A stretch of DNA of 64,000 nucleotides from Crocosphaera sp. UHCC 0190 (GTDB lineage: Bacteria; Cyanobacteriota; Cyanobacteriia; Cyanobacteriales; Microcystaceae), in contig NZ_JAYGHP010000005.1 of assembly GCF_034932065.1 (NCBI RefSeq), positions 1 to 64,000 of the forward strand, in the 5' to 3' direction. Each line of letters begins with the position of its first letter. The stretch's first letter is position 1. Below the pieces are notes generated by a model. That model made no database searches. It was not told the origin of the DNA and worked only from the letters and a program-made list of their open reading frames with translations. This document shows, one piece after another, positions 30,656 through 64,000 of this stretch. The position numbers were made by a program, and so were the translations under genes.

Positions 30656-31147
30656 TCATGATGGGGATGGAATCGTCAAACAGAGGATTTTTTTAATTTC
30701 TTCTAGAGCTAAATTAATCGCATTTTTCGTCATAGAGGAGAAATCTTCGCCAAAATTGAAATTATTGGCAGGAATTAAAATCCAATAAACCAGGGGTTCT
30801 TTTTGATAAAGGGCTTTAGTCAGTGCCAAAAGATTCCAAGGATTACTATGATGAGGATTGAAGTTAGTATGATTGTTATTTAATTTGAGTTGTTTAATTT
30901 GTGGTTTTTCCTCTTCTTGATTGGTGGTTTCTTGGACATCAATAAAAATCACTAAATCTGCTTGAGAAATGTTTTCAGCAAGTTCGGGACTAAGTTGATG
31001 TAAAGGCAGAGAAATGACATTTTTAAAGTTCCAGTTAGCAACGATTTCAGCAATTTTCTGACCGGCACCATCATCACTTCTTAAAGTATTTCCATAGCCA
31101 ATCACTAAGATGTTTTTTGAGGTTTCCAGGTTCGATGCTTTACTCAT
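30656..31147 (-). CDS. hoxW: Hydrogenase maturation endopeptidase HoxW
   Basis: 163 residues. NILVIGYGNTLRSDDGAGQKIAE and VIFIDVQ carry the Glu/Asp nickel-binding residues of the HyaD/HybD fold. It cuts off the C-terminal peptide of HoxH after nickel insertion. It is the last gene of the hox operon, 31 bases after hoxH; in several cyanobacteria hoxW lies elsewhere. Confidence 0.93.
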   Translation of the reverse strand: MSKASNLETSKNILVIGYGNTLRSDDGAGQKIAEIVANWNFKNVISLPLHQLSPELAENISQADLVIFIDVQETTNQEEEKPQIKQLKLNNNHTNFNPHHSNPWNLLALTKALYQKEPLVYWILIPANNFNFGEDFSSMTKNAINLALEEIKKILCLTIPSPS

Positions 31148-31178
31148 TTATGACTCTATTTTTGGGTCTTAAATATAA

Positions 31179-32603
31179 TTAATCTCGGAAAACTTCATCG
31201 AGTAATTCGCCATTTGAAGCAAATAATTGAATTTGTAAGGGCATTTGTCCTGCGGCATGAGTTGAACAACTTAAACAGGGATCATAACAGCGAATTCCTG
31301 CTTCTACACGGTTTAACATTCCTTCTGTCATCGTATTTCCCTTAACATAATATTTAGCAATTTGAGCAACAGTTTGATTCATCGCTAAGTTGTTATTTCC
31401 CGTAGCAATAATGAGGTTTACTTTTTTAATTAAGCCGTTTTCATCAACTTGGTAATGATGAAAAAGGGTTCCTCTTGGGGCTTCACTAACTCCAACGGCT
31501 TCTAAATTATTAATTCCTGCTTTAGCACGGGTATGATTTGATAAAATGTCAGGGTCATTAATTAATCTTTCAATGCGTTCTAAGGACGCTAAAATTTCCA
31601 CTAATCGAGCATAATGATAGAAGAAGGATGATGTGGCTACCCCTCCAGCGCGATCGCGGTATTCTTGTAATTCTTGATCAGCTTTAGCTGTACCAAAATG
31701 AGAACAAATATTGAGTCTTGCTAAGGGGCCAACGCGATAAATTCCTTGAGGATATCCTAATGGTTTGTAGTAGGGAAATTTAAGATAAGACCACTTTTCA
31801 ACTGACTCCCCAATAAAGTCTTTATAGTCTTCTTCTTTTAAGTTATCGGCAACAATATTTCCTTGGCTATCGGTAAAGCGAATATGTCCCCCATAATGTT
31901 CCCAAAGTCCGTCTTCTCCAACTAATCCCATAAACAGAGAATCAAACTGACCAAATGTTTTAACTTCTGTTTCAAATCTATCAAGAATTCCTTTAAATAA
32001 ACTGAGTGCATTATTAGCTGTTTCGTAGGCTTCCGGTAAGTTATCGCTGATCCATTGTTTGCCTTCTTCTGATAAAGGAGATCTGACTCCTCCAGGTACA
32101 GACCAAGCTGCATGGATTTTTTTTGCTCCTAAAAGTTCAATAATTGTTTGTCCAAACTGTCTTAAACGAATGCCACTTCTAGCTAATTCTGGATCAGATG
32201 CTATCAAACCAAAAATATTTCTTTGGGCAGGATCACTGTCCCATCCTAATAAGAAATCAGGGCTACTAAGATGAAAAAAACTGAGGGCATGGGATTGAGT
32301 AATTTGGGCTAAATTCATCAATCTTCTTAATTTTTCGGCCGCGTTTGGAATTTTAACGGCCAAAATTTTGTCTCCTGTTTTTGCTGATGCGAGTAAATGA
32401 CTAACCGGACAAATTCCACAGATTCTGGCAGTAATTCCGGCCATTTCCCACATAGGACGACCTTCACAAAATTTCTCAAATCCTCGATATTCTACTACAT
32501 GAAATCTAGCGTCTTCTACTTGACCAGCATCATCTAAAAAGATGGAAATTTTAGCATGGCCTTCGATACGGGTGACGGGATCAATTACGATAGTTTTAGA
32601 CAT
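31179..32603 (-). CDS. hoxH: NAD(P)-linked bidirectional [NiFe] hydrogenase, large subunit HoxH
   Basis: 474 residues. The nickel-iron site ligands are the two CxxC motifs: CGIC (Cys62, Cys65) and CLSC (Cys443, Cys446). The C-terminal extension after His449 (about 25 residues to LLDEVFRD) is the piece HoxW removes. N-terminus [14 protein letters not shown] is typical. It catalyses reversible H2 production/oxidation at the end of the electron path from HoxF/U/Y. Confidence 0.98.
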
Positions 32604-32688
32604 AATTACCTCTATTTATAGGATAAATGTAAAAATAACCTAGGAGCTTAACACTGTTAAGTCTGTAAGGCCATTAATCATCAAAAAA

Positions 32689-33234
32689 TCAACCAAATTT
32701 AATCATTTTTCTCCCTTCCATAACGGGACTTTCTCCCTTTAATAACGGTTCAATTACTGAGCGAATTCTTGCTGCATTGGGGGGACATCCTGGTAAGAAT
32801 AAATCAACATTGACCACTTCATGAACCGGACTCACTCTATCTAATAATTCTGGGACAATACCAGGTTCTTGTGGTAATTGAGGGGTGATATCTCCTAGCT
32901 CTAAATAAGAGCGTTTTAACACAGTTTCTGCGGGGCCTAACATATTTCTCATCCCAGGAACATTAGCCGTTACAGCACAATCTCCAAAGGAGATAATAAA
33001 CTTGGTTTTCTGTCGAATTTCTTTAATTAATGCTAAGTTTTCTTCATTAGCGATCGCCCCTTCTACTAAACAAATATCAACTCCGTCTGGATAGTCTTTA
33101 ATATCAGCAATGGGACTATATACGATGTCTACTTTTTGGGCTAATTCTAATAACCATTCGTCCAGATCCAAAAAGGACATATGACAACCAGAACATCCCG
33201 CTAACCAAACTGTTGCTAATTTAATCTTTTTCAT
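32689..33234 (-). CDS. hoxY: Bidirectional hydrogenase small subunit HoxY
   Basis: 181 residues. Cys14 and Cys17 (AGCSGC) with later CAVTAN and PGCPPNAARI provide the ligands of the proximal 4Fe-4S cluster. HoxY pairs with HoxH to form the hydrogenase core. The 85 bases before hoxH have no terminator-like structure, so one transcript is likely. Confidence 0.97.
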   Translation of the reverse strand: MKKIKLATVWLAGCSGCHMSFLDLDEWLLELAQKVDIVYSPIADIKDYPDGVDICLVEGAIANEENLALIKEIRQKTKFIISFGDCAVTANVPGMRNMLGPAETVLKRSYLELGDITPQLPQEPGIVPELLDRVSPVHEVVNVDLFLPGCPPNAARIRSVIEPLLKGESPVMEGRKMIKFG

Positions 33235-33312
33235 GGTTTTTAATGGTTAATTGTAACTTGTTTACGAGTTTAATATTATTAAGCCCTACATAATATTAAG
33301 TCCCTACAGTCA

Positions 33313-34029
33313 TTATCTTGTCCATTCTTTTTTAGTTCTAGCTCTGTGTAAAAACTCCAGGGTACTGCGATCGCAGGTCATTTCAGAAGCGGTACTCCCT
33401 TGACGAAAAATTGCCCCAGTGGGACAAGCATCAACACATTTACCACAGGAAGTACAAGCATCAACCTCTCCCCAAGGTTGATTAATACCTGAAACAATAA
33501 AAGATTGACCTCCACGATTCGCTACATCCCAGACATGGGCCCCTTCTATTTCATCACAAACCCTAACACATCTCGTACACAAAATACAACGGTTATGATC
33601 CATTCCAAATAATCGGTGAGATAGGTCAACTTCTCGTTTCGGAAACTTATAAGGAAAACGGGAATGATCCATTCCTACCTTAATAGCTACATTTTGCAGT
33701 TGACAATTTCCATTGACCACACAAACCGCACAGACATGGTTTCCTTCTGCAAACAAAAGTTCAACCGCCATACGTCGATATTCTTTTAATTTTTCTGTTT
33801 CTGTCTGGATAACCATCCCTTCTTGAACTTGGGTAACACAAGCAGGTTGTAGTTTAGAACTGCCTTCAATTTCAACTAAGCATAAACGACAAGCTCCAAC
33901 ATCAGAAACCCCCTCTAAATGACACAGGGTAGGAATTTTAATTTCTGCTTCTTTTGCTGCATCTAAAATTGTCTGTTCTGCTGATGCAGTAATTAGTTGA
34001 TCATTAATGGTTAATGTTTTAACTGTCAT
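33313..34029 (-). CDS. hoxU: Bidirectional hydrogenase diaphorase subunit HoxU
   Basis: 238 residues. N-terminal 2Fe-2S ligands occur in CHLEGVSDVGACRLC; a histidine-containing cluster region contains CAVCVVNGNC; two 4Fe-4S motifs appear in CILCTRCVRVCDE and CTSCGKCVDACP. It passes electrons between HoxF and HoxY. It is 10 bases after hoxF. Confidence 0.97.
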   Translation of the reverse strand: MTVKTLTINDQLITASAEQTILDAAKEAEIKIPTLCHLEGVSDVGACRLCLVEIEGSSKLQPACVTQVQEGMVIQTETEKLKEYRRMAVELLFAEGNHVCAVCVVNGNCQLQNVAIKVGMDHSRFPYKFPKREVDLSHRLFGMDHNRCILCTRCVRVCDEIEGAHVWDVANRGGQSFIVSGINQPWGEVDACTSCGKCVDACPTGAIFRQGSTASEMTCDRSTLEFLHRARTKKEWTR

Positions 34030-34039
34030 TAGTTTAACC

Positions 34040-35647
34040 CTAAGTAGATTGAAGTAAGGTAATATATTCTTCTCGAAAATACTGCAATGTGCTTAACACT
34101 GGGTTAGGCGCAGTCATTCCTAAACCACATAAACTGGTATCTTTTACCATCTGACACAAGGCTTCTAATTTATCTAAATCTTGTTGATTTGCTTTCCTTT
34201 CAATTAACTTAGTTAATAGGTCATATAATTGTACCGTTCCTGCCCGACAAGGTACACATTTTCCACAACTTTCTTCTTGACAAAAATCCATATAAAATCT
34301 GGCAATTTCAACCATACTGGTATCTTGATCCATAACGATCATTCCCCCCGATCCCATGATAGTTCCTAATTTTTGTAAGGAGTCATATTCGACGGGAGTA
34401 TCTAATAAATGGGCGGGAATACAGCCCCCTGAAGGTCCGCCGGTTTGTACCGCTTTTACTGTTCCTTGATTGGGAACTCCGCCGCCAATTTCTTCGACAA
34501 TTTTTCGGATAGAAGTTCCCATGGGAACCTCTATTAATCCGTTATTTTCTACATTTCCTGTCAGGGCAAAAACCTTAGTTCCCTTACTATTTTCTGTGCC
34601 AATACTAGCGTACCAGTCCCCTCCTTCTCGAATGATGGGGACGATGTTAGCGTAGGTTTCCACATTGTTGATCAGGGTAGGATCGCCCCATAACCCTGAT
34701 TCTGCGGGGTAGGGAGGGCGAGGGCGAGGGGTTCCCCGTTTTCCTTCTACGGAGGCGATCAAAGCGGTTTCTTCCCCGCAAACAAACGCCCCTGCGCCTA
34801 CTCTGATGTCAATTTTGAAGTCAAAGGGAGACTCGAAGATTTGTGACCCCATTAAGCCGTATCTTTTGGCTTGTTGGATGGCTTTTTCCAGACGTTTTAT
34901 TGCCAGGGGATATTCGGCGCGAATGTAGATATAACTATGATTTGCCCCCACTGCATAGGCGGCGATCGCCATGCCTTCTAAAACACGGTGGGGATCGCTT
35001 TCTAAGACGGCCCGATCCATAAATGCCCCTGGATCACCTTCATCAGCGTTACAGATGACGTATTTTTGTTGTCCTGGCATTTTAGCGACGGTAGCCCATT
35101 TTACTCCTGTGGGATAACCGCCTCCTCCTCTTCCTCTTAACCCGCTTTTTGTTACTTCTTGGGTAACATCATTGGGGGTCATTTCTAAGAGTACATGACG
35201 TAATTGTTGATAGCCTCCTTTACTAATATAATCATCAATGCTTTCTGGATCAATTTTCCCACTATTTTCGAGAACGATAGGTTGTTGATAGGCAAAAAAA
35301 GGATGAGTTAAATCAGTTTTTTGGGGTAAGTTTTCACGGTTTTGTTGACCATTTAAACTATCAATAATAGCAACGACTTGTTCTGGTTTAACTTGTTGAT
35401 AAAGGGTATCATCAGGGTCAATTTCAATCAACGGCCCTTGACTACATAAACGGAGACATCCCACTGAAGTAACTTCAATTTCTTCGGTAAGATTTTGATG
35501 CTTAACTTCTGTATTTAAGTTATCAATAACTGCTTTTGCTCCCGAAGATAAACACCCTGCTGCTGTACAACACCGTACCCTTTTTCGCTTCTTTTGATGT
35601 TTTGCTTGGGTGGTTTCTTTAATTTCTAATAGTTCTTCTAAATCCAT
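34040..35647 (-). CDS. hoxF: Bidirectional hydrogenase diaphorase subunit HoxF
   Basis: 535 residues. An N-terminal thioredoxin-like 2Fe-2S domain (CCTAAGC..., [10 protein letters not shown]) precedes the NAD/FMN domain ([31 protein letters not shown]) and a C-terminal 4Fe-4S site ([13 protein letters not shown], with a fourth Cys in SLCGLG). HoxF is the NAD(P)H or ferredoxin/flavodoxin entry point. It starts 6 bases after hoxE ends. Confidence 0.98.
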
Positions 35648-35653
35648 AGTTGT

Positions 35654-36178
35654 TTACTCTTCTTCTTGCCAAATTTTAATTGTTTTGAGTGCATTTTCAG
35701 GTGTTTGTTTTCCGGTAACTTCTCCATCAAACACCACGGCAGGGGCAATACCACAAGCTCCTAAACATCGAGCAGATAATAAAGAAATTTGATTGTCTGA
35801 TGTCGTTTCACCGGATTGTATGCCTAATTCTTGTTGTAATGTGGCTAAAATTCTATCGCTCCCTTTGACATAACAAGCAGTTCCTAAACAGACAATACAG
35901 GTATGTTCGCCACTGGGTTTAAGAGAGAATAAATGATAAAAGGTAGCTACCCCATAAACACGACTTAAAGGAAGCTTTAAGGCGTGAGCAACATATTCTA
36001 AAATATCAGGTTCAAGATAACCAAATGCTTCTTGTGTTTTGTGTAAAATTTCGATAAGAGCATCTTGACGATAATGGTTACGCTTCATAGTAATATCAAT
36101 GACTTTGAAGCGTTTATCTGGTCGTTTATCAATTTTTTGATGATTTTGAGGCTTTTTATTTAAGGTTCTTGTTTCCAT
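35654..36178 (-). CDS. hoxE: Bidirectional hydrogenase diaphorase subunit HoxE
   Basis: 174 residues, NuoE-like. 2Fe-2S ligands are in [10 protein letters not shown] and [11 protein letters not shown]. It is the first gene of the operon hoxE-F-U-Y-H-W, compact and without inserted genes. Upstream is the long hox/HO divergent region. Confidence 0.97.
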
Positions 36179-52656: not shown

Positions 52657-53334
52657 TTACGAATTAATTAAATGGCCATCTTCCATGTGAATAATCCGAT
52701 CTGCCATATCTAAAATACGATTATCATGGGTGACTAATAAAATAGTACATCCCTGTTCTTTCGTTAACCTTTCCATAATATCAACCACGTCGCGCCCTGT
52801 TTTACTATCTAAGGCAGCAGTGGGTTCATCTGCTAATACTAATTTAGGATGACTCACTAAGGCACGAGCGATCGCCACCCGTTGTTTTTGCCCTCCTGAG
52901 AGTTGATCGGGATAATAATTTACCCGTTCCCCTAACCCTACCATTTGTAACATCCCTTCCGATTTAGCGATCGCCTCTTGATTACTAATATGGTCATGTA
53001 ATTCGATAGACATTTGTACATTTTGCCTAGCAGTTAAAAAGGGCAATAAGTTATGAGCTTGAAAAATATAGCCCAGATAACGACGCACATTAACTAATTT
53101 ATCTTCCTTGGCCCCGTTAAGTTCATAATCAATGGTTTGAAGACTGCCCTGTTGCACTGAGCGTAAGGCTCCAATTAGGGAGAGTAATGTGGTTTTGCCT
53201 GAACCAGAGGGGCCTGTCATAATCACAATTTCCCCTGGATTAATCTCTAAATTAATATCAAATAAAACTTGTTTTTTTAATCTATCTTTACCAAAAAAAT
53301 GATTAAGACTATGAATGGCAATAACAGGTTTCAT
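52657..53334 (-). CDS. devA: DevA-type ABC transporter ATPase
   Basis: 225 residues. Walker A GPSGSGKTTLL, signature LSGGQKQRVAIARAL, Walker B LVLADEP and the His switch (VTHD) are intact. DevBCA exporters move glycolipids or other envelope substances. Its start overlaps the devB stop by four bases (ATGA), so translation is coupled. Confidence 0.93.
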   Translation of the reverse strand: MKPVIAIHSLNHFFGKDRLKKQVLFDINLEINPGEIVIMTGPSGSGKTTLLSLIGALRSVQQGSLQTIDYELNGAKEDKLVNVRRYLGYIFQAHNLLPFLTARQNVQMSIELHDHISNQEAIAKSEGMLQMVGLGERVNYYPDQLSGGQKQRVAIARALVSHPKLVLADEPTAALDSKTGRDVVDIMERLTKEQGCTILLVTHDNRILDMADRIIHMEDGHLINS

Positions 53335-54677
53335 CGGTTTTCAGAACTGTCAATAATGACATTTACTTGTAAGTTGGTTAATTGGGCAACCCGTTGACTA
53401 TCTTCAGGATTGAGGCGGATTTTAACTTCCACTACTCTAGCATCTGCATCAGCCGTTGGATCAGTTCCTAAGACCTTTTGTCGATCAACCTGTAAGCCAA
53501 TTTCTTCAACAGTTCCCTGTAATTCTTCTACTACCCCATCAGCCGTAATTGTTACAGCTTGTCCCTGGCGTACTCGCATCACGTCACTTTCGTAAACTTC
53601 TGCGGTAACGTACATTTGCGCCGTTTCCCCTAATTCAACAATGCCCTGATTTTGCACCATTTCTCCTGGCCAAGTCTGAACTTTTAAGATTTGACCGGCT
53701 CTAGGGGCTTTTACATAGGCTAACGCTAAATTAGCTTCAGCTTGTTTCACCGCAGCTTGGGCAGAGGCAAGTTCACTTTGAGCAACTTGTATATCGACGG
53801 GGCGCACTTCAGAAACAGCACTAAGCATAGCTTGGTTTTCTGCAATTTGTGTCTGAAGGGTGGTGATGGTACGATTTAGATTGGCTTTAGCTGAATTAAT
53901 TTGGTCTTGTAAGGTGCTAATAATGCGTTGAAGATTAGCATTGGCTTCTTGTACTTGTTTTTGGGTAATTTCTTGCTGCAAACATACCCGATCATATTCT
54001 TGTACGGAAACCGCTCCATCTTGATTTAAAGTTTGATAGCGTTGGCATTCCGTAGTGTTATTGCGTAATTCTGCCTTTAATCGCTCAATGGTAGCTTTTT
54101 GAGCATTTCTTTCTCCGAGTAATTGGGCTTCTAAATTAGCAATGCTAGATCGCTGTACCGCAATTTGTCCTTCTAGCTCCGCTTTGGTTCCCATAAATCT
54201 CGCATTTTGGGCGTTAATATCCCCTTGTTTAGCTCCTGCTTTTACTTTGGCTAAGTTAGCTTGGGCAACTTGAACCTGAGTTTTGGCTTGCTCTAAAGCT
54301 GATTGTAGGCGATCGCGGCTATCAAGAATAGCAATGATTTGATTTGCTTTAACTTGATCACCCCGTTGCACCAGCAATTGAGTAACCCGCGCTCCTTCCT
54401 GAAAAGCAGGTGCAGAAACTTTAATGGTTTCTCCTTTGGGTTCCAAATAACCTAATGCAGCGACTCTAGAAGGCTCTGGACTCTCTGAGGATAGGGGAGA
54501 GGGGGAAGACTGGGCAATTTGTTGGCGCATGAGAGGAACAGCATAAAAGACAACACCACCAGTTAACAAAACTCCCCATCCAGAAATTGCAAGTAGCCAG
54601 AGGAATTTAGGACGTTTTTGGTTTTCTGTCTTTTCTAGCTTGCCTTGATACAAGGACTTTCCTGGGCTTCCTAACAT
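53331..54677 (-). CDS. devB: DevB-type membrane fusion protein (HlyD family)
   Basis: 448 residues. A single N-terminal membrane helix (FLWLLAISGWGVLLTGGVVFYAVPL) is followed by lipoyl/barrel-sandwich parts (LEPKGETIKVSAPAF, VKANQIIAILDSRD), a long alpha-hairpin of about 200 residues rich in Gln/Ala, and a beta barrel (AYVKAPRAGQILKVQTWPGEMVQ). It links DevC/DevA to an outer-membrane channel such as TolC. AGGAG lies eight bases upstream of the ATG. Confidence 0.93.
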   Translation of the reverse strand: MLGSPGKSLYQGKLEKTENQKRPKFLWLLAISGWGVLLTGGVVFYAVPLMRQQIAQSSPSPLSSESPEPSRVAALGYLEPKGETIKVSAPAFQEGARVTQLLVQRGDQVKANQIIAILDSRDRLQSALEQAKTQVQVAQANLAKVKAGAKQGDINAQNARFMGTKAELEGQIAVQRSSIANLEAQLLGERNAQKATIERLKAELRNNTTECQRYQTLNQDGAVSVQEYDRVCLQQEITQKQVQEANANLQRIISTLQDQINSAKANLNRTITTLQTQIAENQAMLSAVSEVRPVDIQVAQSELASAQAAVKQAEANLALAYVKAPRAGQILKVQTWPGEMVQNQGIVELGETAQMYVTAEVYESDVMRVRQGQAVTITADGVVEELQGTVEEIGLQVDRQKVLGTDPTADADARVVEVKIRLNPEDSQRVAQLTNLQVNVIIDSSENR

Positions 54678-54788
54678 GAGTAGCTCTCCTGGGTTTCTGA
54701 CGATAGGGATTGAGTTGACCGCATCATCTATAGAATTCCCTAAAATTCATATTTAACTACAATTTTGTCAAAAAGTGGTGAAGGGTCG

Positions 54789-55994
54789 TCAAAAAATATC
54801 GGCCGGATCAGCATCTTTCAGCTTTTTGATAGCTGTTGCTCCAGCGATAAAACACATGATTAGGGTTAAAAAAAACACCCAAATTGCTCTTTGAACTGTC
54901 ATGGCAATGGGTAAAAAAGTCGCTTTTTTCGCCACCTCATAAATAATTATCGAGAGCAAAAATCCGGGGATATAGCCTAAAACAGCGATAAAGGTAGCTT
55001 GCTGGAGAATCATGGATAACAGATAACTATTACGATAACCAATCGCTTTCAAGGTGGCATATTCGGAGAGATGTTCTGATACATTACTATAAAGAATTTG
55101 ATAAACAACAACAACACCGACAACAATCCCTAAAACAATGCCTAAACTGAAAATAAAGCCAATGGCTGTACTACTATTCCAGTAATCTTGCTCAAATTCT
55201 ATGTATTCTTGTTTTGATAAAACTTTTACATCTTTGGGTAAGTATGCTCTGAGTTTACGAGCAAATTCTTCCCTGTTAACACCAGGCTTCAATTTAATTA
55301 ATCCCACATCAATAGCAGTCTGAGGACGTTTATTAAAAATTCTCAAAAAGTTAACATCGCTGGTGACAATATTCCCATCTGCGCCAAAAGAAGTTCCTAA
55401 TTCAAATAAACCTACCACATCAATTTTGATTGTTTGACCAGCCTGAGTGAGTTGGGTCGCTACTTTCCCCTTTTCTTTGACGGACGAGATAATTGAACCA
55501 AATTCATACCGAGAATTTTGATCGAACAAGATATTTTCAGGAATTTTTAACTTGTTTCGATTTTCTTGCATACCTGGCAGATTTAACACTGAGCGTCTTG
55601 CATCAATGCCAATTACAAAGATTTTCCGCCAATATTTTTTGTCTTGGGGATTTTGCCACTGGGCAAAGCCTAGATAAATGGGACTAATAAATTCAACTTC
55701 TTTAAAAGCCAAGGATTGCCATAAACGTTTCTTATTAAAGGATTCCATCGCAATTAAGGCATTGGATTTGGGACTAATTAAAAAAACATCTCCTTGTAAT
55801 GATTGGTGAAAGCGCACAGCACTTTCAAATAAACTGTGTTTTAATCCAAATTGGACAAAAACTATGACAACCGCAAAAATCACGCCAGCAAGTGCTACTA
55901 ATAGCCGCGTTTTTTGGTGTCTAAGTTGTAGCCCAGCTGTCGGAATTTTAAAAATCATATCCTTTAAACGCATCCATGAACTCAAAGGTAGCAT
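54789..55994 (-). CDS. devC: DevC-type ABC transporter permease
   Basis: 401 residues from the ATG at 55994; a GTG at 56027 would add eleven residues that relatives lack. Four transmembrane segments (TRLLVALAGVIFAVVIVFV, FSLGIVLGIVVGVVVVYQILY, AVLGYIPGFLLSIIIYE, AIWVFFLTLIMCFIAG) with a large periplasmic part between the first two, as in MacB/FtsX. It is the first gene of a C-B-A order operon. Confidence 0.9.
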   Translation of the reverse strand: MLPLSSWMRLKDMIFKIPTAGLQLRHQKTRLLVALAGVIFAVVIVFVQFGLKHSLFESAVRFHQSLQGDVFLISPKSNALIAMESFNKKRLWQSLAFKEVEFISPIYLGFAQWQNPQDKKYWRKIFVIGIDARRSVLNLPGMQENRNKLKIPENILFDQNSRYEFGSIISSVKEKGKVATQLTQAGQTIKIDVVGLFELGTSFGADGNIVTSDVNFLRIFNKRPQTAIDVGLIKLKPGVNREEFARKLRAYLPKDVKVLSKQEYIEFEQDYWNSSTAIGFIFSLGIVLGIVVGVVVVYQILYSNVSEHLSEYATLKAIGYRNSYLLSMILQQATFIAVLGYIPGFLLSIIIYEVAKKATFLPIAMTVQRAIWVFFLTLIMCFIAGATAIKKLKDADPADIF

Positions 55995-56027
55995 CTTTAT
56001 CTCTTTTGTATCTTCAACTATAGCCAC

Positions 56028-56392: not shown

Positions 56393-57097
56393 ATGAACAA
56401 AGCTATAACTTTTGCGACAGCAACATCTCTCCTCGTCATGGGAGTTGGTTCTTCACAAGCGGCTGATCTCAGACCTCCTATTGGTGGACCTTTCACTGAT
56501 GTTTATGCTTTTAGCTCTATTCCAGGATCAGGTAATGGTGTTAACGTAAAAATTGTTGGTGGCACAGCGTTCTTCGACTTCATCCCTGACGGTTTTGGTG
56601 CAGATGGACAATATGATGTCGATTTAGCAACAGGTGCTTTTGCCGAATTTGGTAGCGTACCAGGTCTTATCAAGGATGTGTCTCTTCCTTTCCCCCTTGC
56701 TCCTAATGCACCAGTAGCAATTCCTATCACTACTTTCCTGAATCTCGATGGGGTGGCTGCTCCTGATAGTGTATTTGACTTAACTACTGCTTTTGGTCCT
56801 GTATTTACAACAACGGCAACGGGAACAACAATTAGTTTTGATTTCGCAGGTGTGTTTAAGCAAACTGCTGGTGACATTGCTAATTTCAACGGTTCCGGAA
56901 CAATTTCTGCTACCTTTATTGGGTTAGCTCCCGAAGACATTATAGAACTAGCACAACGCCCTGAGGGAATAACCTCATCCCAATCTGGTACTTTCACTCT
57001 AAGAGCAGAGGCTGTGCCTGAACCCAGTGCTTTAGTCAGCTTAGCTGCTTTTGCTGGTGCGGGAACTCTGTTAAATCGTAAGCGCAAAAACAAATAG
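56393..57097 (+). CDS. PEP-CTERM sorting-domain protein
   Basis: 234 residues. A signal peptide (ITFATATSLLVMGVGSSQAA) is cut after about residue 24. The C-terminus has VPEPSALVSLAAFAGAGTLLNRKRKNK, the PEP-CTERM signal read by an exosortase. The body is Gly/Phe/Asp-rich and beta-like (FNGSGTISATFIGLAPEDI), typical of secreted surface proteins of unknown role. No exosortase gene in the window. GGGAG lies seven bases before the ATG. Confidence 0.92.
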   Translation: MNKAITFATATSLLVMGVGSSQAADLRPPIGGPFTDVYAFSSIPGSGNGVNVKIVGGTAFFDFIPDGFGADGQYDVDLATGAFAEFGSVPGLIKDVSLPFPLAPNAPVAIPITTFLNLDGVAAPDSVFDLTTAFGPVFTTTATGTTISFDFAGVFKQTAGDIANFNGSGTISATFIGLAPEDIIELAQRPEGITSSQSGTFTLRAEAVPEPSALVSLAAFAGAGTLLNRKRKNK

Positions 57098-57198: not shown

Positions 57199-57717
57199 TT
57201 ACGAATTATCACTAAGAGCTTTTTCTTCTGTTTGAATTCGTTGAATCATTAATAAACCATTAGCAAGACTGAACACTATTGCTGTTAAGTAAGCATTGTG
57301 AATCAGAGGAAGTCCAAAAATTTCTAAAATCACCCCTAACCAATTGGGATGTCGTAAATAACGATAAATTCCGGTATCCACAAGAGGTAAACCTGGAATC
57401 GTCATAATTGCCAATGTCCAACGGTTTCCTAATGCTTGCATCGACAAATAACGCAAAACTTGTCCGGCAATGGTTGCTATTAACCCAATAACGGCCAGAG
57501 AGAGAATAAAAGCACGATCAAAGTACCATACCTCTGCAATCATGGCTACCCACCAACTTACCTGTAGAATTTTAACGACACCCAGTAAATTATCGCTATA
57601 TTCTTGACCTCCTTGGGCTAAGATTTCAGTGGCATTACGTTGACTAATTCTGAGTTCAAACAGTCGTTGTAATATGACACAGATAATGATGCCGACAAAA
57701 ATCCATCGAGTAACCAT
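57199..57717 (-). CDS. ICMT-like membrane methyltransferase (BpsB/YpbQ-like)
   Basis: 172 residues. Four to five hydrophobic helices and the motif IYRYLRHPNWLGVILEIFGLPLI, in which RHPNW matches the AdoMet-binding region of isoprenylcysteine carboxyl methyltransferase relatives. Its place directly after a type III polyketide synthase mirrors Bacillus bpsA-bpsB, where BpsB (YpbQ) O-methylates alkylpyrones. I infer a similar task here. Gap to the synthase is 56 bases. Confidence 0.8.
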   Translation of the reverse strand: MVTRWIFVGIIICVILQRLFELRISQRNATEILAQGGQEYSDNLLGVVKILQVSWWVAMIAEVWYFDRAFILSLAVIGLIATIAGQVLRYLSMQALGNRWTLAIMTIPGLPLVDTGIYRYLRHPNWLGVILEIFGLPLIHNAYLTAIVFSLANGLLMIQRIQTEEKALSDNS

Positions 57718-57773
57718 GATTGTTTTTCATCCGATTTCAAGAATTGAGAATGTCAAAACTTAAAGACAAAAGC

Positions 57774-58895
57774 TTACCATTGCAAGAGAATGACTTCTTG
57801 AGAGAAACCTGGCCCCATAGCGATCATCAAACCATAAGAACCTGATGGGGGTTGCTCTGCTGATAAAGTTTTATCTAAGATATAGAGAATAGTCGGAGAT
57901 GAAAGGTTGCCCACTTCAGCTAATACCTCACGGCTCAGATTTAAAGCCTGTTCATCAAGACCATACTCATCTTCGATCGCATTAATAATTTTTGGTCCCC
58001 CTGGATGAACCAACCAACGGGATATATCATCAATGGAGAGATGATGAGCTTCTAAGAGAGGATCAATGGTTTGTCTGAGTCCCACCCTGACATAATCAGA
58101 AACTTCTGGCCGCAGGATATTACGAGTTCCGGTATCAACCACATCCATTCCCATTAAGTGAACCGTATCTGGTAACACCATTGAGCGACTATCAACGACT
58201 TTGGGACAACCAGCTTGTGCTAAAGGGTGATCATCACCAACCATTAAGACAGCAGCCGAACCATCACCAAACAAGGCCGCCGTCACAATGGTCATGATAA
58301 TGTCACTATATTGGGAAGGATCATTAGGTAAACGGCGAACCATCGAACATAAATCCCGTTGTAGTGATCCTTGCCAGAGGGAAGAAGAAGGCTCTGAGGC
58401 AACCAGAATTGAAGATTCTGTGGGATAGGCCTTTAAATAATCAGCGACACGAGCAACCCCAAAAGCCCCCCCCATACAACCGACACTAGCGAGGGGCATT
58501 CTTTTAATGTTTCGAGAAAAAGGAATGTGGTTCATTAGTCGCACATCAATACCAGGAACTGCTGGAATGAGAGAAGTTGCGGTTAACTGAGAGATATCTG
58601 TGGGTTCGAGGGCGGTTTTTTTGAGCAATTTCCAGACCGTTTCTTCAACCAGGTCAACAGTTGCTTTAATTGTGGCGTTCATACTTTCCTCAATTCCAGG
58701 GGGTTCAAAAAAGGAATCCAGGGGCAACATAAAATAACGTCCTTTAATCAAGACGTTAGTGAAGAAACGATCAATCGTATCTAAATCAAAATCTAGCTCT
58801 TTTACCAGGAAGTATTTACGGAGTGCATTGGCTAACACTTCCTGGGGATAATAGTGAGCCGGAAAACCAACAGCAGTATTAACGATAAAAGTCAT
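57774..58895 (-). CDS. Type III polyketide synthase (chalcone/stilbene synthase family)
   Basis: 373 residues. The catalytic triad is Cys140 (VGCMGGAFG), His297 (LVHPGGPKII) and Asn330 (EVGNLSSPT); GFGDGSAAV-like FGDGSAAVLM and GMGPGFS-like MGPGFS are present. It condenses malonyl-CoA units onto an acyl starter and folds the chain to a pyrone or resorcinol. It follows the type I synthase with 97 bases between and the methyltransferase follows it. The starter is probably a long acyl chain, from comparison with bacterial relatives. Confidence 0.93.
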   Translation of the reverse strand: MTFIVNTAVGFPAHYYPQEVLANALRKYFLVKELDFDLDTIDRFFTNVLIKGRYFMLPLDSFFEPPGIEESMNATIKATVDLVEETVWKLLKKTALEPTDISQLTATSLIPAVPGIDVRLMNHIPFSRNIKRMPLASVGCMGGAFGVARVADYLKAYPTESSILVASEPSSSLWQGSLQRDLCSMVRRLPNDPSQYSDIIMTIVTAALFGDGSAAVLMVGDDHPLAQAGCPKVVDSRSMVLPDTVHLMGMDVVDTGTRNILRPEVSDYVRVGLRQTIDPLLEAHHLSIDDISRWLVHPGGPKIINAIEDEYGLDEQALNLSREVLAEVGNLSSPTILYILDKTLSAEQPPSGSYGLMIAMGPGFSQEVILLQW

Positions 58896-58992
58896 GATAT
58901 TAGAAACTCTATACTAGGGTTAGTGGGTGCAGCAATGATAGGGGTAAATCGTAAAAAGACTCTACTTAATCTAAAGTATTCCCTAATTTGGT

Positions 58993-61900
58993 CTAAGAAT
59001 CTATATACTCAGAAATTTTTTGCCAAACAATTTGTAACATTTCTGGTTGTTCTTTCTGAAAAAAGAAATGTTCACCGGAAAACATCTTTACCCTAAAATC
59101 TTGACTGGTTTGTTGACTCCAGCTTTCAAGATCTTTTTGACTAACTTTCCTATCATCTACCCCTCCAAAGGCATAAATGGGACAATTCAGAAGATCACCA
59201 GACCCATACAAATACGTCTCCATGAGGGCAAAATCTGCGCGTAAAATGGGGAGAAATTGTTGATCAAATTCAGCTTTTTTGAGGGTTTCTTCGGGAATTC
59301 CCTGGAATTTCTGGAGAGCTTCTTTAAATTTAGAATCTCCTAACTGATGCAACGGTACATCAAAATCGGGAATTTGGGGAGCGCGACTACTCGAAACAAA
59401 TAGACAAACAGGACTTTGCTTGTTCTGTCGGCGAAGTTCACGGGTTAATTCAAAGCTTAATAAGGCCCCCATACTATGACCAAAAAAGGCAAAGGGACGA
59501 TCAAGATAAGGACAAATTAAAGGAACTAAGGTTTGAATTAGAGGTTTTAGTCCCGTAAAAGGAGGTTCTTGATCTCGATTTTCTCGACCAGGTAACTGAA
59601 CGGGACAAATTTCGATGTCAGACGGAAAGAATTTTGACCAAGATTGAAAAATTGAAGCCCCTGCACCTGCATAGGGAAAACAGAAGAGACGTAAACGAGG
59701 TTGAGAATTTTTATCCAAAAAAGGAAACCATAAATCTTGTTGGGTTTGCTTTTCTCTGTTTAATTCTGGTTCAGAGTCTCTATGAGTAGCTTGACTGGTA
59801 ATCAGATGCAGCACCTGATCAAAAAACTGCTCAATGGTCAGTGCGGCGAAATATTCCACAGGAACGGCTATTTCTAGAGTCATTTCTAGCTCTTTTCTGA
59901 TTTCGGTTGCCATCAAAGAGTCAATTCCTAAACTAGATAGAGGTTGTTGCCAGTCAATTTGATTGGCAGGAATTTTCGTAACTTTTCCTAACAGTTTACC
60001 AAGGTAAGATTGAAGCAATTCTTGACATTCTTGAGGATCAGCTTGCAGTAATTGAGTTTTGGTCAAGCTTTGACTTGGTTTTGTGTCAGTTTTAGATGTT
60101 TCTGGGAATGACTCAGTGGATGTAGATAAATTTTGGTTTTTCTCAATGACTGAAGATGACGGTGATGAAGGTTGCGCTTGGGTGAGTAAGACATCAACTA
60201 ACCTGGGTAACAGTTTCACCTCTTTATCTGAAAAATTGCCGACAGTTTGTAACTGCTGTAATAATATTTGATGGACTAAGTTACTGGTTGAGACAGTTGG
60301 GGTTAACTTTTTAGAAGAATCAGTGTCTAACCAATATCGTTTTCGTTGGAAGGGATAGGTAGGCAAGGAGATGGGACGACGTACATAATCTTGATCAAAT
60401 TTAGACCAATTAATATTAATTCCCCTAACATAAAGCATGGCCAAACTGTTCAATATGTGTAGCCAATTTTCTTGTTCTGGACGCAAACTCGGAAGCCATA
60501 ATTGTGCTTGTTCTGGTAAACAGTGACGACCCATTCCTAACAGAATCGGTTTGGGTCCAATTTCTAGAAACACTTCATAGCCCTGTTGCGCCAGGGTTTC
60601 CATGCTCTCAGCAAATCTTACAGGTTGGAGGATATGAAGACACCAATATTCAGGCGTTCCTATGTCTTGGCTGGCCAGTTGTCCTGTCACATTAGAAATA
60701 ATGTTAATTTGGGGTTGATGATAGGTAATTTCTTGGGCAATTTGGCGAAATTCCTCTAACATCGGTTCCATCGCGGGTGAGTGAAAGGCATGAGAAACTT
60801 GTAAGGGTTTTGTTTTAATGCCTTCAGATTCAAAGATTGCTTGTACTTCCGTAACGACTTCAGATAAACCAGAAATCACGATGCTTTGTGGCCCATTGTA
60901 AGCAGCAATGACTACTTCTTGACCGTAGGGTTGCAAGACAGCTTTAACCTTGGTTTCATCAGCGAGAACAGCCATCATAGACCCATCTTGAGGTAATGCT
61001 TGCATTAAGCGTCCCCTCTGGGCAATCAGTTTCAGTCCATCTTCCAGACTAAACAAACCAGCAACACAAGCGGCGACGTATTCTCCCACACTATGACCCA
61101 TAACCACATCAGGTTTAATGCCCCAAGATTGCCATAATTGAGCTAAAGCATATTCGAGGGCAAAGAGGGCGGGTTGTGTGTAGGCCGTTTCATGAATGGG
61201 AGATGATTGCCCCTCCCTAGGGTAAAGAATCTCTAGTAGGGGTTTATCTAAGTAGGGACGCAAAATTTGGTCACAGCGATCTAAAATTTCTCGAAACCTG
61301 GGCTGAGTTTCATACAACTGTCGCCCCATATCCTCATATTGTGATCCTTGGCCAGTAAACAAAAAGGCAATTTTCTGAGCTTTCCGAGACGTTACTATCC
61401 CTGAGATTCCATTGCTTTCTTCTTGATGTGCAAAGGCGGCTAATTCTCGCTGTAAGTCTTCTGAAGTGTCGGTGACAATGGCTAATCGATGTTCAAACTG
61501 CGATCGCCCTGTATTCGCACTAAAATAAATATCGGCCACAGAAATATCAGGATGGGATGCCAAAAATGTTTGATAACGATTCGCCATCTCTAATAAAGCT
61601 GGTTCAGTTTTGGCTGAGAGGGTTAACAGATGGTAAGGACGTTCTTGGGATGATGATTGAGCGTCAAGGGTTTCTGATGTCTGAGGGGCTTCTTCAACAA
61701 TCAGATGACAATTGGTTCCCCCAAACCCAAAAGCACTAATTCCCGCGAGGCGTTTTTCTGAGGGTGTTTCCCAAGGTTCACACTGGAGAGGAATTCTTAG
61801 AGGCGTTCCTTCGACTGAAATATAGGGATTAAGTTGTTGAAGATTGAGATGCTGGGGAATTTCTTGGTGTTGCAGGGACAAAACGACTTTGATTAAACCT

Positions 61901-62982
61901 GCAATACCGGCCGCTGATTCTAAATGGCCAATATTGGTTTTAACAGATCCAATCCAACAGGGTTGATCCGGTTGACGATTTTCCATCAAAACCTTTTTCA
62001 AGGAGTTAAATTCTTGGGGATCACCCAGAGGGGTTCCTGTCCCATGAGCTTCAATATAGCTGATTTGATTCGCCTTAACCCCCGCATTTTTCAAAGCTTG
62101 ACGAATGACTGCCTGTTGAGATGGGCCATTAGGTGCTGTTAAACCATTCGTTAAGCCATCTTGATTAACTGCCGAGCCTTTAATCACAGCATAAATCTTA
62201 TTTTCACCCCGTAGCGCGTCTGAAAGCCTTTTTAGAACAACGATGCCACATCCTTCGCCGCGAACATAGCCATCTGCTCTGGCATCAAAGGTTTTACAAT
62301 GGCCATCGGATGCCATCATGCGAGCTTGAGAAAAGATAATTGTGCCTTCTGGGGACAAAATTAGGTTAACGCCCCCCGCTAAACATAAATCTGATTCCTG
62401 AAGCCGTAGACTTTGACAAGCATAGTGAACTGCTACGAGGGATGAGGAACAAGCAGTATCTATGGCTAAACTAGGCCCCTTTAAATTTAACAGGTAGGAT
62501 AAACGATTGGCTGTAATGCACAATGCGTTTCCGGTTCCACTATAAGCACTTATTTTAGAGATATCTTGTAGGGATGCTCTACCATAATCATTATTACTAA
62601 TACCGACAAAAACCCCTGTTTGACTTTCAGCAAGCTCCTTTGGGATTAAACCCCCGTTTTCTAGAGCTTCCCAAGCCACTTCTAACAATAGTCTTTGTTG
62701 AGGATCAATATATTCAGCTTCACGAGGAGAAATCCGAAAGAATTCTGCATCAAAAGCATCTATTTCCTTTAAAAAACCACCCCACTTTGTATTCATCTTG
62801 CCTGGGGTCGCAGGAGTTTCCTCATACAATGATTCTATATCCCAACGATCTGGAGGTACTTCCGTAATTGCATCAATGCCATTACGCAATAGTTGCCAAT
62901 AATGTTGGGGATCATTGGCAGAGGGAAAACGACAACTTAGACCGATGATGGCGATAGGTTCCAAAATTACCTTGTTCTCCAA
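58993..62982 (-). CDS. Type I polyketide synthase, KS-AT-ACP-TE, one non-reducing module
   Basis: 1329 residues. KS domain about 7-430: Cys178 in DTACSSSLVAVH, His313 in EAHGTGTPLGD, His353 in KTNIGHLES. AT domain about 538-830: GHSVGEY with Ser631, and HAFH at 731-734, which indicates malonyl-CoA. The linker ends PTYPFQRKRYW. ACP about 985-1060 with Ser1022 (LGIDSLMATE). The C-terminal thioesterase about 1095-1325: GHSMGA with Ser1170, Asp near 1277 and His1305, of the RifR/SrfD type. No KR, DH or ER, so the added unit stays a beta-keto group. The start EPIAIIGLSCRFP is standard. Confidence 0.95.
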   Translation of the reverse strand: MENKVILEPIAIIGLSCRFPSANDPQHYWQLLRNGIDAITEVPPDRWDIESLYEETPATPGKMNTKWGGFLKEIDAFDAEFFRISPREAEYIDPQQRLLLEVAWEALENGGLIPKELAESQTGVFVGISNNDYGRASLQDISKISAYSGTGNALCITANRLSYLLNLKGPSLAIDTACSSSLVAVHYACQSLRLQESDLCLAGGVNLILSPEGTIIFSQARMMASDGHCKTFDARADGYVRGEGCGIVVLKRLSDALRGENKIYAVIKGSAVNQDGLTNGLTAPNGPSQQAVIRQALKNAGVKANQISYIEAHGTGTPLGDPQEFNSLKKVLMENRQPDQPCWIGSVKTNIGHLESAAGIAGLIKVVLSLQHQEIPQHLNLQQLNPYISVEGTPLRIPLQCEPWETPSEKRLAGISAFGFGGTNCHLIVEEAPQTSETLDAQSSSQERPYHLLTLSAKTEPALLEMANRYQTFLASHPDISVADIYFSANTGRSQFEHRLAIVTDTSEDLQRELAAFAHQEESNGISGIVTSRKAQKIAFLFTGQGSQYEDMGRQLYETQPRFREILDRCDQILRPYLDKPLLEILYPREGQSSPIHETAYTQPALFALEYALAQLWQSWGIKPDVVMGHSVGEYVAACVAGLFSLEDGLKLIAQRGRLMQALPQDGSMMAVLADETKVKAVLQPYGQEVVIAAYNGPQSIVISGLSEVVTEVQAIFESEGIKTKPLQVSHAFHSPAMEPMLEEFRQIAQEITYHQPQINIISNVTGQLASQDIGTPEYWCLHILQPVRFAESMETLAQQGYEVFLEIGPKPILLGMGRHCLPEQAQLWLPSLRPEQENWLHILNSLAMLYVRGININWSKFDQDYVRRPISLPTYPFQRKRYWLDTDSSKKLTPTVSTSNLVHQILLQQLQTVGNFSDKEVKLLPRLVDVLLTQAQPSSPSSSVIEKNQNLSTSTESFPETSKTDTKPSQSLTKTQLLQADPQECQELLQSYLGKLLGKVTKIPANQIDWQQPLSSLGIDSLMATEIRKELEMTLEIAVPVEYFAALTIEQFFDQVLHLITSQATHRDSEPELNREKQTQQDLWFPFLDKNSQPRLRLFCFPYAGAGASIFQSWSKFFPSDIEICPVQLPGRENRDQEPPFTGLKPLIQTLVPLICPYLDRPFAFFGHSMGALLSFELTRELRRQNKQSPVCLFVSSSRAPQIPDFDVPLHQLGDSKFKEALQKFQGIPEETLKKAEFDQQFLPILRADFALMETYLYGSGDLLNCPIYAFGGVDDRKVSQKDLESWSQQTSQDFRVKMFSGEHFFFQKEQPEMLQIVWQKISEYIDS

Positions 62983-63065
62983 ACGCTATATTTTGAGTAT
63001 TCCCCAGATTTACTGATCAATAACACTTGTCACTTTACTTAATCTTTACAATTAGTTGGGGTAGT

Positions 63066-63518
63066 TTACTCAGGCAAATAATCGGGATTTAGGGTTTCTT
63101 CTGGAGTAAAGGGACAGCTTTCAGGAAAACTTGTTAGGGATAATCCGGTTTCTTCGGCAGCCCACTCCTTCGCGGGAAAGTAACAATCTAAAAAGATTTC
63201 TCTAAAATAAGGCTTGAGTCCTGGATGCTTCCCTAATGCTTTATTGATACGTCGGCGATGCTCCTTGATGCTCCCTCTCCAACTTCCACAACGATAATCG
63301 GGTTGGTATTTCCATTTAATCAGGTGGGCTAGGACAACAATCAAATTGTTTTCCAATGCGTCTTTGCGGGACCCACCCATTTCTTCTAATTCCTCAATCA
63401 AGTGTTTTATATCTAGGGCTGAAAAATTCCCAGAACGGAGCGATTCCGAAGTTTTCGACAACCAGAGAGGATAATTTTGAACGTAAAGTTCTTTAGGGAT
63501 TACTTCAGTAGTCATCAA
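63066..63518 (-). CDS. DUF29 family protein
   Basis: 150 residues. LYVQNYPLWLSKTSESLRSGNFSALDIKHLIEELEEMG and IKWKYQPDYRCGSWRGSIKEHRRRINKAL match DUF29, a helical family expanded in cyanobacteria with no known function. It lies between the free ACP and the polyketide synthase on the same strand, with 83 and 30 bases of spacing. Presence within a biosynthetic cluster may be accidental. Confidence 0.85.
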   Translation of the reverse strand: MMTTEVIPKELYVQNYPLWLSKTSESLRSGNFSALDIKHLIEELEEMGGSRKDALENNLIVVLAHLIKWKYQPDYRCGSWRGSIKEHRRRINKALGKHPGLKPYFREIFLDCYFPAKEWAAEETGLSLTSFPESCPFTPEETLNPDYLPE

Positions 63519-63548
63519 GACTCTCCTAATTGATAAGATGATAATTAG

Positions 63549-63815
63549 TCATTCTATCATTGTAACAATATGGTTTGCCAAAGCCTCAATCGTTGGATAA
63601 TCAAATAAGAGAGTGGGATCGAGATTTTGTCCTAACCATTCTTGAAGATCTCCTGTTAACACAATGGCCGCTGAAGAATCTAGCCCATATTCATTAAATG
63701 ATGCCTGAGTATCGATCTTGTTTGGCTCAATTTCTAGGAGTTGAGATAAATAAGAAACTAGCCAATTTTCAATGTCAGTGTAGCCAGGGTGTTTTTCTGA
63801 GGTATTTTGGCTCAT
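63549..63815 (-). CDS. Free acyl carrier protein
   Basis: 88 residues. EYGLDSSAAIVLTGDLQEWLG carries the phosphopantetheine attachment at Ser47, and the following LDPTLLFDYPTIEALANHIV is the PKS/FAAL-associated ACP type. In cyanobacteria such ACPs usually receive a fatty acyl chain from a fatty acyl-AMP ligase and hand it to a ketosynthase. A ligase gene, if present, lies past the window edge. It is the first visible gene of the cluster. Confidence 0.9.
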   Translation of the reverse strand: MSQNTSEKHPGYTDIENWLVSYLSQLLEIEPNKIDTQASFNEYGLDSSAAIVLTGDLQEWLGQNLDPTLLFDYPTIEALANHIVTMIE

Positions 63816-64000
63816 AAATTCTAACTTTCTAAAGTATTTAGCTAGAAAAAACCCAACTTTTGAAAAAAGTAACTTTTTGAGGTTTCATCATAGCTCTATT
63901 AGAAATCCTAACATTTTTGGATCTTCTTATGAGTCAATACTTTTAATGAGATAAGAATTTTAGGCAATTTTGTCCAGATTCATGCTTGCTAAATTAACAG

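Follow-up and report, generated by a model that had tools for sequence, protein, structure and literature searches.

A trimmed, probably monomer-forming member of the (7.7)paracyclophane-like cluster family in Crocosphaera sp. UHCC 0190

The stretch of DNA analyzed here (the window) comprises the first 64,000 nucleotides of contig NZ_JAYGHP010000005.1 from the cyanobacterium Crocosphaera sp. UHCC 0190. At its far end, on the minus strand, lies a polyketide gene cluster with genes for a fatty acyl-AMP ligase (FAAL), a free acyl carrier protein (ACP), a single-module type I polyketide synthase (PKS), a CylI-type type III PKS, and an ICMT-like membrane methyltransferase. The cluster belongs to the (7.7)paracyclophane-like family, but is probably not a paracyclophane producer. 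We favor, as the probable reading, a minimal (7.7)paracyclophane-type pathway that would end at the monomer; the product would most likely be a monomeric 5-alkylresorcinol, possibly O-methylated, and less likely an alkylpyrone. This reading is carried by the gene content, the motifs, homology, the co-occurrence of the genes, the lack of a CylC or CylK match, the grouping of the ketosynthase (KS), and the constraint on the genes.

Five open reading frames (ORFs) with short gaps between them were found on the minus strand. They encode the ICMT-like methyltransferase (57199..57717), the type III PKS (57774..58895), the type I PKS (58993..62982), a DUF29 protein (63066..63518), and the free-standing ACP (63549..63815; 88 aa, Ser47). 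All five were recognized by Pfam (ICMT, 8.7e-26; Chal_sti_synt_N/C, 3.8e-13 and 6.5e-19; KS, 1.1e-100, along with acyltransferase (AT), PP-binding, and thioesterase (TE) matches; DUF29, 9.1e-48; free PP-binding, 8.2e-17). The initial annotation had placed these genes on one strand, at the same coordinates, and had described their catalytic residues as intact. Both statements were borne out, as KS Cys-His-His, AT GHSVG and HAFH, ACP DSL, TE GHSMG, free ACP LDSS, and type III Cys140/His297/Asn330 were all present.

The last 41 bases of the window (63960..64000) are the 3' end of a sixth co-directional gene, FAAL1, which occupies 63960-65744 of the contig as a whole (C5:63960-65744, equal to L002:6961-8745). 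An acyl-activating enzyme had been predicted beyond position 64000, and this gene, adjoining the ACP, encodes one of 594 aa (AMP-binding, 8.8e-75). Its top solved match was 7r7g, deposited as 'Polyketide synthase' (668 bits), and the fatty-acyl-AMP ligases FadD28, FadD23, and FadD32 were also in the list. A second FAAL, 66% identical to FAAL1, starts divergently 229 bases beyond it (L002:8975-10897). This gene is divergent from the cluster in the window genome (G000) and co-directional in its relative G002 (L095:7379-9328), the two copies being 70% identical; the unlike orientation points to inversion or separate insertion.

A CylI-type match at E ≤ 1e-30 was found in 19 of 388 genomes sampled from the window's order, its own genome counted. 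Together with the named loci L015, L018, L019, L024, and L025, which came from the best 80 of 192 relatives, these make up the 24 mapped neighborhoods. Left out were L016, L017, and L020-L023, whose contigs match in length those of G192, G215, G289, G267, G292, and G251. The 24 loci are not fully independent, four being from one genus and three Microcystis-like. Eight of 69 loci (L026-L094) served as outgroups, and the weaker matches L007-L014 are not in any tree.

The KS-AT-ACP-TE gene lies upstream of the type III gene in 22 of the 24 loci and is absent in G087 and G180; an FMO gene stands between the two in four of the 22, and the AT match of G267 is a fragment. Downstream, the ICMT-like gene follows in 21/24, and the contigs of the three loci without it (G087, G289, and G292) end 1.7, 2.0, and 0.2 kb further on. 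In 14/24 loci a FAAL was present; several of the others are truncated by the end of the contig or locus. The genes of the homologous clusters thus co-occur, which, with the FAAL in place, supports the earlier suggestion of a line that runs from a fatty acyl starter through the type I to the type III enzyme. An extra, distant KS-AT on the opposite strand was seen in G078, G118, G213, and G190. Furthermore, G180 carries on C80 (L159/L160) a FAAL, a distant CylI-like type III PKS (46-48%), an ICMT, and an FMO gene, with no type I KS or AT in the mapped 36 kb.

CylC was located within eight of the 24 mapped stretches and, in a ninth locus (L015), 951 bases upstream; CylK was found in 13. Neither was present in the mapped stretches of G000, G002, G014, G312, G326, G311, G180, and G289. 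Of these eight, G000 and G002 alone combine one KS-AT-ACP-TE module with an ICMT gene and the lack of an FMO gene; G289 is also single-module, on a short contig. The CylC query for genome searches was an L018 protein assigned by position and literature, its AurF Pfam match lying below the cut-off. It found nothing in G000, and in a set of six genomes G002 alone was without a match (the match in G014 being off the cluster contig). The CylK query, an L015 protein identified by 7ron CylK (9.4e-136), gave three weak matches in G000 within query residues 118-302 (best 2.5e-12). At E ≤ 1e-20 in nine genomes it found none in G000, G002, G014, G312, and G326, and matches in G152, G118, G059, and G393. 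Given an assembly that is 99.96% complete in 38 contigs, an overlooked CylC or CylK gene is possible but unlikely. As neither CylC, for chlorination, nor CylK, for coupling, was found, no paracyclophane ring would be expected.

The missing CylC and CylK could also indicate a decaying paracyclophane cluster without present function. However, no frame breaks were found: the six cluster genes including FAAL are in frame in G000 and G002, and dN/dS is 0.08-0.26 since the split of the two, the single stop counted in the G002 ICMT gene being read as the terminus of its 170-aa ORF. Decay is therefore regarded as very improbable.

The type III PKS was assigned to the CylI type by Pfam, PDB comparison, and alignment. 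Among PDB chains, CylI matched over the full length with 506 bits (8ysp and three more entries), and the next, Pks11, with 227 bits. NCBIfam matched DpgA at 132.5 bits, below the cut-off of 425, and the CylI assignment was preferred. At the position of F265 in chalcone synthase (CHS), an equivalence that rests on our alignment and the CHS motif, the window enzyme has Asn. The CylI-type loci have Asn in 19/24, Gln in 4/24, and Ala in 1/24, and all eight outgroup rows have Val, Ile, or Leu. In PMC8086630, Gln or Asn at this position goes with the paracyclophane clade and Met with the HidC clade of hierridin-like clusters. The bit score to CylI and the Asn place the window enzyme in the CylI-type clade (2.222 of PMC8086630), and Asn instead of Met sets it apart from the HidC type.

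Bacillus BpsA-BpsB had been proposed as an analogy, by which the chain would be lactonised and the ICMT-like enzyme would methylate the 4-hydroxy group of an alkylpyrone. Such a route would fit Pks11, deposited as alpha-pyrone synthesis PKS-like, as second-best solved relative. It would also fit bpsAB, for which PMC5686519 describes a methyltransferase next to the type III PKS and counts a 4-O-methyl alkylpyrone among the compounds. However, CylI is much closer than Pks11 by bit score, and according to PMC8086630 CylI-type enzymes are tied to alkylresorcinols, while no alkylpyrone has been isolated from cyanobacteria, which does not exclude one. On the bit scores the Bacillus analogy is the weaker of the two, and an O-methylated alkylpyrone appears unlikely.

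In the type III tree, which holds no CylI and no BpsA row, G000 and G002 are sister to Cylindrospermum NIES-4074 (98/92), followed by G152 (96/97). In both of these relatives the cluster includes CylC, and CylK is nearby; that of G152 lies on the other strand, some 8.5 kb beyond the ICMT gene. Forcing the G000 and G002 enzymes into one clade with the four rows of the Microcystis MKS type was rejected by the approximately unbiased (AU) test (p-AU 0.0007); the clades for this test and that of the KSs below were chosen after the trees were viewed. CylK presence needs at least two changes across the 19 of 32 rows that were scored (G180, G289, G292, G267, G251, and the outgroups left unscored). In this tree G000 and G002 form a lineage without CylC and CylK that is distinct from the MKS type, where the two are missing as well. 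The flanks of the cluster are unlike in the two genomes, with PEP-CTERM-like (by eye), DevBCA, and M20 peptidase genes in G000 and genes for a thylakoid formation protein, a molybdopterin oxidoreductase, and a histidine kinase in G002. These differences, and a sister from the Nostocales, suggest that the cluster may move between genomes.

Pfam and motifs define the type I PKS as a single module of KS (aa 8-381; 61840..62961), AT (aa 540-852; 60427..61365), ACP (aa 994-1051; 59830..60003), and C-terminal TE (aa 1098-1316; 59035..59691). The HAFH motif of the AT is presumably of the malonyl type, by the usual motif rule. No ketoreductase (KR), dehydratase (DH), or enoylreductase (ER) was detected by Pfam in this protein. 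A second KS or AT, as expected for a further reducing type I module, was not found in the stretches mapped for G000 and G002; L015 and L021 have one. The first proteins of two-module relatives read KS-AT-DH-ER-KR-ACP (L015 and L021) or KS-AT-DH-KR-ACP (G014), and the second protein of G014 is a KS-AT-ACP-TE without reducing domains in Pfam. In Cylindrospermum sp. NIES-4074 the terminal PKS consists of two ORFs of 764 and 602 aa, the break falling inside the AT (L015:5892-9994).

KS trees were built without matches below 300 bits or on the other strand, which dropped the opposite-strand KS (35-37%) of G078, G118, G213, and G190 and a 28% KS of L024. The 29-row tree, from which the long branch L024 was omitted and in which the L015 first-module KS covers 47% of the columns, splits with 100/99 support into groups of 14 and 15. 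The former holds nine terminal KSs, that of G289, and four MKS-type first KSs; the latter holds four first-module and eleven single-module KSs, G000 and G002 included. These two fall into an 11-row subgroup (99/96) with the four first-module and five other single-module KSs, and constraining them into the terminal-side group was rejected (p-AU 0.0075). Judged by their position, first-module KSs would take the chain from the loading ACP. The window module thus seems to combine a first-module kind of KS at its start with a TE at its end, as in terminal proteins. A collapsed two-module line and an ancestral single-module line would both fit.

The active-site Ser and His of the TE are kept in 22/22 homologues, and its nearest solved relatives are stand-alone thioesterases, RifR among them. 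Proofreading, release, or transfer are possible roles. These features would also agree with a TE that sets the 3-oxo acid free ahead of the type III step, giving two separate products, a methyl ketone or beta-keto acid and an alkylresorcinol. However, the presence of KS-AT-ACP-TE and the type III gene together in 22 of the 24 loci favors one line, and two products seem rather doubtful.

For the favored pathway, every chemical step, the chain length, the role of the TE, and the methylation site are what we infer from the genes, with steps modeled on the cylindrocyclophane scheme as given in PMC8086630 and PMC11837247. The FAAL would activate a free fatty acid (Cn) and load it onto the free ACP. 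The KS of the single-module PKS would accept this chain and add one malonyl unit, which, with no KR, DH, or ER to follow, would remain unreduced and give a 3-oxoacyl chain. By carbon count, the CylI-type enzyme would add two malonyl units; the table passage of PMC11264947 credits merE only with the 'third' malonyl. C2-C7 aldol condensation and decarboxylation by the same enzyme would yield a 5-alkylresorcinol with a side chain of n-1 carbons. The ICMT-like enzyme would then probably methylate the phenolic (or resorcylic acid) product.

Several points weigh against this reading. The window cluster has no known product. Why a chain destined for the type III enzyme would need a TE lacks explanation. 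The deep KS split became weaker when L024 was included (85/78, 96/90), the 11-row subgroup with G000 and G002 then having 98/97. The four MKS-type first-module KSs fall with the terminal ones, so that the split is not simply one of first versus terminal. The grouping of the KSs is not recovered in the AT tree, which has no terminal AT row for L015 and G267 (no match over 250 residues), and resolution in the TE tree is poor. ATs from one cluster often group together, and the AT and TE trees leave the module origin unsettled. Finally, an ICMT-like gene is likewise present in clusters for cylindrocyclophanes, which are not known to carry an aryl methyl ether; O-methylation may thus not be the job of this enzyme.

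PF04140 has a single match in the window genome, the ICMT-like protein. Its HPNW motif is kept in 20/21 homologues, and its alignment with solved ICMTs is weak (best 9.1e-7). A real possibility, although not one we would put first, is that this enzyme acts on another substrate or is a family relic, and that the alkylresorcinol line ends at the free 5-alkylresorcinol. Retention of the gene in 21/24 loci, when some products of such clusters presumably have free phenols, would agree with this, but the gene, the sole ICMT match in the window genome, is under constraint. SrsB, which is presumably ICMT-like, also argues for methylation: this O-methyltransferase is reportedly responsible for decarboxylative methylation of alkylresorcylic acid, going by the title of Nakano et al. 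from 2012. Nostocyclophanes bear methoxy groups (PMC9967113), possibly added by an ICMT, which would likewise speak for methylation. The table passage of PMC11264947 gives merF by family name only, which would suit the free resorcinol. In the opposite direction, and more tentatively, the cluster could be a paracyclophane-type line re-tooled toward an O-methylated, hierridin-like monoalkylresorcinol, with a collapsed two-module PKS in which an acyl-accepting first-module KS shares one protein with the terminal ACP-TE, loss of chlorination and coupling, and an ICMT-like finishing step, perhaps an SrsB-like decarboxylative methylation of the alkylresorcylic acid.

The earlier suggestion was that this combination of genes may lack a known product. 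As a combination it is not unprecedented, being the core of the mer, cyl, cab, and Microcystis MKS/PmNT3 clusters. PMC8086630 describes 21 (7.7)paracyclophane-like clusters and proposes a cylindrofridin-like monomer for the Microcystis MKS cluster, in which cylC and cylK are missing. Of the family features given there, FAAL plus ACP and a merF/mksH-type methyltransferase beside the type III PKS are found in the window cluster. The mer cluster of Nostoc sp. UIC 10110 has the same parts (FAAL merI, ACP merA, TE-bearing type I PKS merD, type III PKS merE, and ICMT merF), and Microcystis counterparts of merD, merE, and merF are listed (PMC8086630 and PMC11264947). It differs by a second type I PKS with reducing domains, merC, where the window cluster has one module, and by DH and KR in the merD row of the PMC11264947 table, which Pfam finds neither in the window PKS nor in its G014 counterpart. 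In the non-Microcystis clusters of PMC8086630, cylC and cylK homologues are highly conserved, whereas the window genome has no such match. Likewise, cyl and cab share FAAL, free ACP, type I PKS, and CylI-type type III PKS, but differ in a second type I PKS along with CylC and CylK, none of which was found in the window cluster.

The Microcystis MKS/PmNT3 (PKSImod/PKSIII) orphan cluster, with its proposed monomeric product, shares the absence of cylC and cylK, the ICMT, and the TE-ended PKS. The four mapped MKS-type loci differ: they have two modules, their PKS and type III genes are separated by an FMO gene, and the residue at the CHS-F265 position is Gln. The hierridin cluster hidABC shares a type III PKS plus methyltransferase and gives an O-methylated alkylresorcinol; no type I PKS is described for it, and its clade, according to PMC8086630, has Met at the F265 position. 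Also in contrast to hidABC, there is no oxidoreductase among the five genes of the window. A type III PKS beside a methyltransferase, which we take to be ICMT-like, is also common to bpsA-bpsB and srsA-srsB, which presumably lack the FAAL-ACP-type I PKS line. The novelty of the window cluster would lie in its unusual trimming to a single non-reducing module without CylC and CylK. No description of this version was found in the literature searched, but it may already be in the supplementary cluster list of PMC8086630.

Two further elements of the locus, DUF29 and DevBCA, are probably bystanders. DUF29, counted as a cluster member in the initial annotation and sitting where several related clusters have cylC, is 91% identical in G002 and under constraint. 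It was rejected as a pathway part because the window genome has 29 DUF29 matches and, among the 24 loci, none but G000 and G002 has the gene next to the cluster. DevBCA-type ABC exporter genes adjoin the cluster at 52657-56027 (DevA 376, DevB 339, and DevC 502 bits), and DevB and DevC were found near 7/24 loci. In 22 chosen genomes, the closest relative of the window DevC (89%) was in G002 on contig C15, away from the cluster on C9, and others at 61-64% were in G008, G009, and G014. DevCs beside other clusters were more distant (L015 genome 41%, G078 48%, G118 47%, and L025 genome 38%). DevBCA was therefore rejected as cluster exporter and its position here judged coincidental. The DevBCA genes of G078, G118, G190, and G213, all from one genus, sit within the cluster, with CylK on one side and the ACP gene on the other. 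An HMG-CoA synthase cassette (PF01154) gave matches in 0/5 genomes (controls 7/14); with the cluster-bearing G061, G251, and G152 among the five, it has no discriminating value. Between cluster and DevBCA, on the strand opposite to the cluster, a 234-aa protein with a PEP-CTERM-like end by eye is encoded at 56393-57097, with no match in Pfam or NCBIfam. Elsewhere in the window, a bidirectional-hydrogenase-like (hox) gene run with a maturation-protease-like ORF was noted by eye at 30656-36178.

Across the CylI-type loci the ICMT-like gene is a regular companion of the type III PKS, yet it has no step assigned beyond its family name in the table passage of PMC11264947. With six genes, and with neither a halogenase nor a coupling enzyme nor a second module found, the present cluster offers a simple setting for learning the substrate of this methyltransferase, how a chain is handed from type I to type III PKS past a TE, and which monomer such pathways make. 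It also represents a CylC/CylK-less lineage separate from the MKS type.

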